From: Chloroflexota bacterium
GTDB lineage: Bacteria > Chloroflexota > Anaerolineae > Aggregatilineales > Phototrophicaceae
Length of the DNA: 64,000 nt
Direction: 5' to 3'
Assembly (NCBI GenBank): GCA_026707665.1
Contig: JAPOWK010000039.1
Location: forward strand, 1-64,000
The notes under the pieces were generated by a model. It made no database searches, was not told the origin of the DNA, and worked only from the letters and a program-made list of their open reading frames with translations. The translations under genes were made by a program, and so were the position numbers. Position 1 is the stretch's first letter, and every line of letters starts with the position of its first letter. This document shows, piece after piece, positions 50,335 to 50,924 of the stretch.

Positions 50335-50381
50335 CTATTCCTCTCAATCGGCAGATTTCTGGTTAGCATAAAGTTTCAACA

Positions 50382-50456
50382 TTGTCCGCTATTGTCCATT
50401 TCGGACAAAGAAATATATTTTTCGGACAATACAGCCGATTTTGGACAAAAAATCGG
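50382..50456. promoter_or_regulatory. phased TTGTCC/GGACAA operator-like array
   Basis: TTGTCC at 50382 and 50392; GGACAA at 50403, 50423, 50443; CCGATTTT-GGACAA-AAAATCGG inverted repeat 50435-50456. Confidence 0.6.
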
Positions 50457-50722
50457 TTTGAGGTGAGTTTGAGACGTCGGCGATGGATGACAGCTAAGAC
50501 CTTTTCGCTGCATCCCCCCAGAAATCGGTTTTGAATTGGCACAGTGTATAGACAGGGCATGGATAGATGAAAGGGGTACCCCCTCTTCGGCAGCGTGCGG
50601 GAAGGGCAATATGCAGGAGGTCCTCAGAAGCCTCGGGTTGGGCGAGAAGTGTATGGCAGCCATAGGGCAGAGCATGACATCGACATTATTGGAAAGGGCG
50701 ACCAAATGGTCGCACAAGTCTT

Positions 50723-50749
50723 GTAGGTTGGGTAGGTCGCGTAGGTCGC
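50723..50749 (+). repeat. 3 x 9-bp tandem repeat (GTAGGTYGS)
   Basis: GTAGGTTGG GTAGGTCGC GTAGGTCGC followed by CTCAACCCGACC. Confidence 0.8.
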
Positions 50750-50924
50750 CTCAACCCGACCGCCGACAGTGGATGTCAGTCGTCTCTGGATACACGGTGT
50801 CCCGAGACCAGATTATTGATTGCCATGTCCTCAATTTCCACCGCGTCTCAACCTTGACGGAATACGCAGCCAAGTGCAAAATCTAGGAATTGGAAGTGCG
50901 TACCACATAGGAAGCAATTGCAAA

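Follow-up and report, generated by a model that had tools for sequence, protein, structure and literature searches.

A phased TTGTCC/GGACAA array in a dispersed, putatively transposon-derived element of Anaerolineae, and a candidate HTH protein that may bind it

The DNA analyzed here, which we call the window, is a 64,000-nucleotide stretch of a Chloroflexota genome. In it, a histidine phosphatase gene and a divergent right-hand gene are separated by an AT-rich island (36% GC versus 58% for the window) holding five hexamers in the order TTGTCC -10- TTGTCC -11- GGACAA -21- GGACAA -19- GGACAA (Table 1). A first-pass annotation had described this array as an AT-rich island with five hexamers, two TTGTCC units 10 bp apart (50382 and 50392), a central TTGTCC-ATTTC-GGACAA (50392-50408) and a last GGACAA forming the loop of a perfect 8-bp inverted repeat (50435-50456), all of which agrees with the sequence. 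Its GGACAA spacing of "exactly 20 bp" was a counting error, the real steps being 21 and 19 bp with the second GGACAA at 50424. TTGTCC/GGACAA occurs 37 times in the 64 kb. Five of these occurrences fall inside 67 bp, a cluster for which a rough Poisson estimate gives a chance of 3e-10 per 67-bp interval. More decisive than this figure is the homology of the array to further copies elsewhere in its own genome. The 8-bp stem around the last GGACAA is absent from two such copies, C46 and C52, when compared by eye.

Table 1. Features of the insert, its array and its surroundings (window coordinates).
Feature	Position	Strand	Basis or remark
Left-hand gene, histidine phosphatase (PF00300), 200 aa	49732..50334	-	Pfam family
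TCTCAA, left copy of probable target-site duplication	50342..50347		Identical to 50846-50851; single in L201, L205
Alignment to C52 copy, same genome	50345..50445		82% over 100 bp
Insert, 498 bp, between histidine phosphatase gene and next gene	50348..50845		Missing from 29 syntenic relatives; in L201 and L205 the two flanks abut
Half-site TTGTCC 1	50382..50387	+	Sequence
Half-site TTGTCC 2	50392..50397	+	10 bp from TTGTCC 1
Alignment to C46 copy, same genome	50393-50486		82% over 94 bp
Half-site GGACAA 1, inverted	50403..50408	+	11 bp from TTGTCC 2
Half-site GGACAA 2	50424..50429	+	21 bp from GGACAA 1; 50423 in first-pass annotation
Inverted repeat CCGATTTT-GGACAA-AAAATCGG, perfect 8-bp arms	50435..50456		Stem lost in C46 and C52
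Half-site GGACAA 3	50443..50448	+	19 bp from GGACAA 2; loop of 8-bp inverted repeat
TCTCAA, right copy of probable target-site duplication	50846..50851		Single in L201, L205
Probable native promoter of right-hand gene, TTGACG-17-CAAAAT	50854..50882	+	Sequence, kept in relatives; inferred

The phosphatase and its divergent neighbor are adjacent in 29/29 relatives, usually with some 65-120 bp between the aligned flanks. Conservation in syntenic relatives, on which the first-pass annotation had staked its reading, fails, as the array is absent at the syntenic site in 29/29. Judged by this comparison, the window array is part of an inserted element and not a local operator. The duplication flanking the insert is 6 bp long (TCTCAA), as against 9-10 bp in the ISAs1-ended elements described below and the ~8-10 bp expected of ISAs1-type MITEs, and the right end of the insert lies 8 bp short of the TTGACG-17-CAAAAT promoter. 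Because 498 bp of inserted DNA intervene, the phosphatase is separated from its original upstream DNA and would then need either a promoter within the inserted sequence or a long leader. Other features were noted at this site. The insert contains, at 50729-50760, a GTCGCGTAGGTCGCG-type repeat that recurs, dispersed or in tandem, at dozens of loci across several of the genus's genomes. At the same intergenic site L202 (genome G011) has a different, shorter insert of ~60 bp flanked by CCTCTC; this position may be a hot spot, or an older insertion there may be shared. In L270 (G125:C8) and at G124:C6:109116-109289, a gene of the HTH family discussed below directly adjoins the orthologue of the phosphatase.

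BLAST within the source genome found five further copies of the array, and a pattern search one more. The C52 copy (~560 bp, G000) is also an insertion and is absent in G002 and G119. Across the genus, the array pattern GGACAAWRAAANNNNNTTTYYGGACA is present in 13 of 34 genomes at 1 to ~25 copies each, with 0 for a reversed control, and it was found in 0/120 other genomes of the order. In public genomes the pattern is nearly confined to Anaerolineae/Chloroflexi MAGs, part of which, to judge by their isolate names, probably come from sponge symbionts. The frequency of the motif, which the first-pass annotation had proposed to check by a genome-wide scan, is far from random, with 22 copies in G009 versus 1 for the reversed pattern. 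Spacings are quantised among the ~100 copies: the two TTGTCC units are 10 bp apart in 48 of the 54 copies that have two, the TTGTCC-GGACAA step is 13, 11, 21 or 12 bp, and the step from the second to the third GGACAA is 30 or 19 bp. The 21-bp step of the family was set by the search pattern itself. The third GGACAA stands at +19, as in the window, in 18 of the ~52 copies having a third. The core of the array is retained across sub-families that are otherwise diverged in sequence. At orthologous filled sites it is usually more conserved than its flanks; in the orthologous pair L136/L169 it is conserved no better than they are.

Inverted repeats of 18 bp, CAGGGCAATCGC[AT]TCAAA, bound the element in G009, G122 and some further sub-families and are accompanied by 10-bp target duplications, such as AATAAATGGT in L177 and CTAGCTAGCG in L262 (also 10 bp in L258). 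A search with PF01609 found transposases in L317 and L325 whose ends match these, and others in L318 and L326 with weaker ends. The ISAs1 transposase of L317 (NF033564, 1.8e-111) is intact and lies between near-identical, CAGAGCAATCGCA-type ends with a 9-bp duplication, AATTAGATG, and in L325 a transposase fragment adjoins an exact ISAs1-type end. At ~30 loci with such terminal repeats there is no transposase-like ORF between the ends, as judged by ORF position only. By these sequence features the array copies in relatives are MITE-like, many lying between ISAs1-type 18-bp terminal inverted repeats with ~10-bp duplications. They share with ISAs1-family MITEs the 18-bp ends beginning CAGGG, the 9-10 bp duplications, the lack of an internal transposase and the presence of an ISAs1 transposase in the genus, but differ in having a conserved half-site array, in carrying an HTH gene in their long forms and in that recognisable ends are missing from the window copy. 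At the window insert, the best match to the ISAs1 terminal inverted repeats was 11/18, no better than in random pieces (null mean 11.7), and its homology to the elements with terminal repeats barely extends past the array. The window copy, lacking recognisable ISAs1-type ends, may have been moved by ISAs1 or have inserted by another route. A broader MITE family was also seen, comprising short intergenic elements (L287-L316) with ISAs1-type ends and mostly without the array.

An HTH gene of ~220 aa contains the array, in frame and on the minus strand, in sub-families D and E; in L257 this gene is intact (219 aa, array in frame). The AlphaFold2 model of the protein (pTM 0.31) has a confident HTH at residues 9-57, a disordered linker at ~59-100 and a helical hairpin at 102-163, and the linker is the stretch coded by the array. 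A constraint on protein coding was considered as a reason for the array and rejected, as TTG TCC is invariant in the HTH genes of array families, with no drift to synonyms; in many families the reading frame through the array is open only by chance. HTH homologues occur in 55/98 family genomes as lone genes in varied places, and the gene co-occurs with arrays (12/13 genomes versus 8/21, p 0.003). G127 has an array, and the HTH search there gave no match. The source genome's own copy (G000:C59:28278-28850; L261, L342) has one in-frame TAA just past the HTH.

The HTH protein resembles two known groups in part. Like the small terminases of SPP1 and P22, whose genes hold the pac site, it has an HTH layout of similar kind and a gene that holds a site possibly bound; unlike those genes, it has a small palindrome in place of pac. 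Its match to a small-terminase PHROG is weak (0.025), Foldseek of the model (pTM 0.31) returned nothing significant, with no match below E 0.5, and no large-terminase or phage genes were seen beside the HTH gene in the ORF lists of its neighbors. A phage origin was rejected, as the gene has no relatives in viral contigs. With OrfA-type transposase proteins (HTH_Tnp_1, PF01527) it shares an N-terminal HTH and a sub-threshold match (5e-4 to 0.03), but no OrfB or DDE partner was seen adjacent and it has a C-terminal helical hairpin of its own.

Diverged HTH homologues have an inverted repeat at the position of the array, with arms that vary by gene and stay complementary: CTGTCCGA/TCGGACAG, ATGTCCGA/TCGGACAT, TATGGCCGA/TCGGCCATA, CCGCCGA/TCGGCGG, TTGGCAC/GTGCCAA and TTTCGGCGA/TCGCCGAAA. 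A synonymous-shuffle test on 22 genes gave a Fisher p of 1.4e-11, a value that takes related genes as independent and an interval picked after the palindromes had been seen. Covariation across seven aligned sites was 0.333 versus 0.092 (sd 0.045) in shuffles, a level reached in 0/500 of them. In the interval tested, some HTH genes (L334, L260, L276 and L343) show no clear palindrome. In several genes a third half-site, 10 bp further on, changes together with the arms, reading CGGACA, CGGCCA in L263 and GGCGGCA in L269, and it is likewise altered along with the arms in the TGTCCGA genes. The window array has a pair with this same 10-bp spacing. An array bound by protein would need such a co-changing third half-site and a hairpin would not, which counts against a hairpin reading.

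Reading the array from TTGTCC to GGACAA, the nearest gene on the left points away from it at 68 of 83 sites (68:15, p 3e-9), and the nearest gene on the right at 45 of 76; the two sides differ with p 0.003, all of these counts resting on simple ORF calls. The 68 left-hand neighbors carry 99 Pfam families, no single one of which is found in more than 5 neighbors, and no recurrent gene family was found beside the copies. A metabolic regulon was rejected, as the genes next to the arrays are functionally unrelated. Since the functions of the neighbors disagree, any effect of the array would be either local and incidental or general, for example silencing or insulation.

Insertion, dispersal, ISAs1-type ends in relatives, a conserved layout, palindrome co-variation in the HTH genes and an orientation bias are thus shown, and we think it somewhat probable that the array is the conserved half-site core of a dispersed, transposon-derived element and is bound by an HTH protein of the element's own family. 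Binding of the half-sites by this protein is, on the patterns described, most likely. The first-pass suggestion of a phased half-site array for a DNA-binding protein fits well, given spacings that recur in ~100 copies, the 68:15 bias at the left-hand gene and the candidate HTH protein. We hypothesize that the protein binds half-sites as an oligomer, first in its own gene, and that copies spread by transposition, in several families via ISAs1-type ends acted on in trans. The insert that separates the phosphatase from the gene diverging from it would in this way be a non-coding, transposon-derived element, and each insertion would supply one more binding array, in most cases upstream of the gene to its left, where it may affect transcription.

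The same compensatory changes in the palindrome would be expected if the array worked mainly as an RNA or single-stranded DNA hairpin, in mRNA attenuation or in transposition of the REP/IS200 kind, and several arms are long enough (9-13 bp) to be in keeping with this. We consider such a role unlikely: the third half-site that changes along with the arms lies outside the stem, the spacings of 10, 21 (set by the search pattern) and 30 bp are near helical repeats, and both the ends and the duplications are of the DDE-transposon kind. An Rfam search of the elements found no ncRNA family, and RNAalifold gave no convincing structure outside the array on either strand of the G009 element. It is quite improbable that the array is passenger sequence of a MITE, kept through recent copying and binding nothing. 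Non-coding copies dispersed beside unrelated genes, and the many ISAs1-ended MITEs without an array, would suit that explanation; a core that is kept across sub-families diverged elsewhere and usually beats its flanks at orthologous sites, the orientation bias of 68:15 and the synonymous-shuffle result in the HTH gene all speak against it.

In some families of transposons the transposase binds subterminal repeats, and the half-sites might be transposase-binding sites of this sort within the element. We regard this as highly unlikely, as the array has an internal, one-sided position, there are ISAs1-ended elements that lack it, and homologous palindromes occur in HTH genes in whose flanks no transposase was seen. 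Most doubtful of all is the view of the first-pass annotation, that the array is a cooperative operator through which an ordinary metabolic regulator controls the phosphatase. Phased half-sites upstream of a gene, together with the orientation bias, would be in line with it, and a dedicated operator of this kind is hard to reconcile with the same phosphatase lacking the insert, and with it the array, upstream in 29 relatives, or with left-hand neighbors elsewhere that share no function.

Returning to the reading in which a family HTH protein binds the array, we speculate, as a tentative extension that we would not yet expect to hold, that a DNA-binding gene contains its own co-evolving palindromic target, that MITE-like copies scatter this target into a spreading network of sites for one HTH protein, and that gene and site re-tune between lineages. 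If true, a single mobile family would naturally tie together a DNA-binding protein, the site it targets and the spreading of that site. One could then trace from genome to genome how transposition enlarges a regulatory network, and a specificity code could be read from the way in which arm and recognition helix co-vary.

IHF sites are carried by Correia elements and by further small mobile repeats of bacteria (PMC2229807, PMC10969869). These repeats share with the present family the form of small, dispersed intergenic elements with a protein-binding site, which is predicted here; they differ in that our array is, by inspection, unrelated to the IHF site and in that the candidate binding protein is encoded by the element's own long relatives. 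Intergenic arrays of GGACAATAAAA-like units at ~20-bp spacing are present in two Firmicutes, L121 (Mesobacillus campisalis) and L151 (Fictibacillus gelatini); their layout and context differ and we treated these look-alikes as unrelated. L250 (G006) and L251 (G133) carry other palindromic repeats (GTAGGGGCGACTCTGTGAGTCGCCC) in their orthologues of the intergenic region that holds the C52 insertion.
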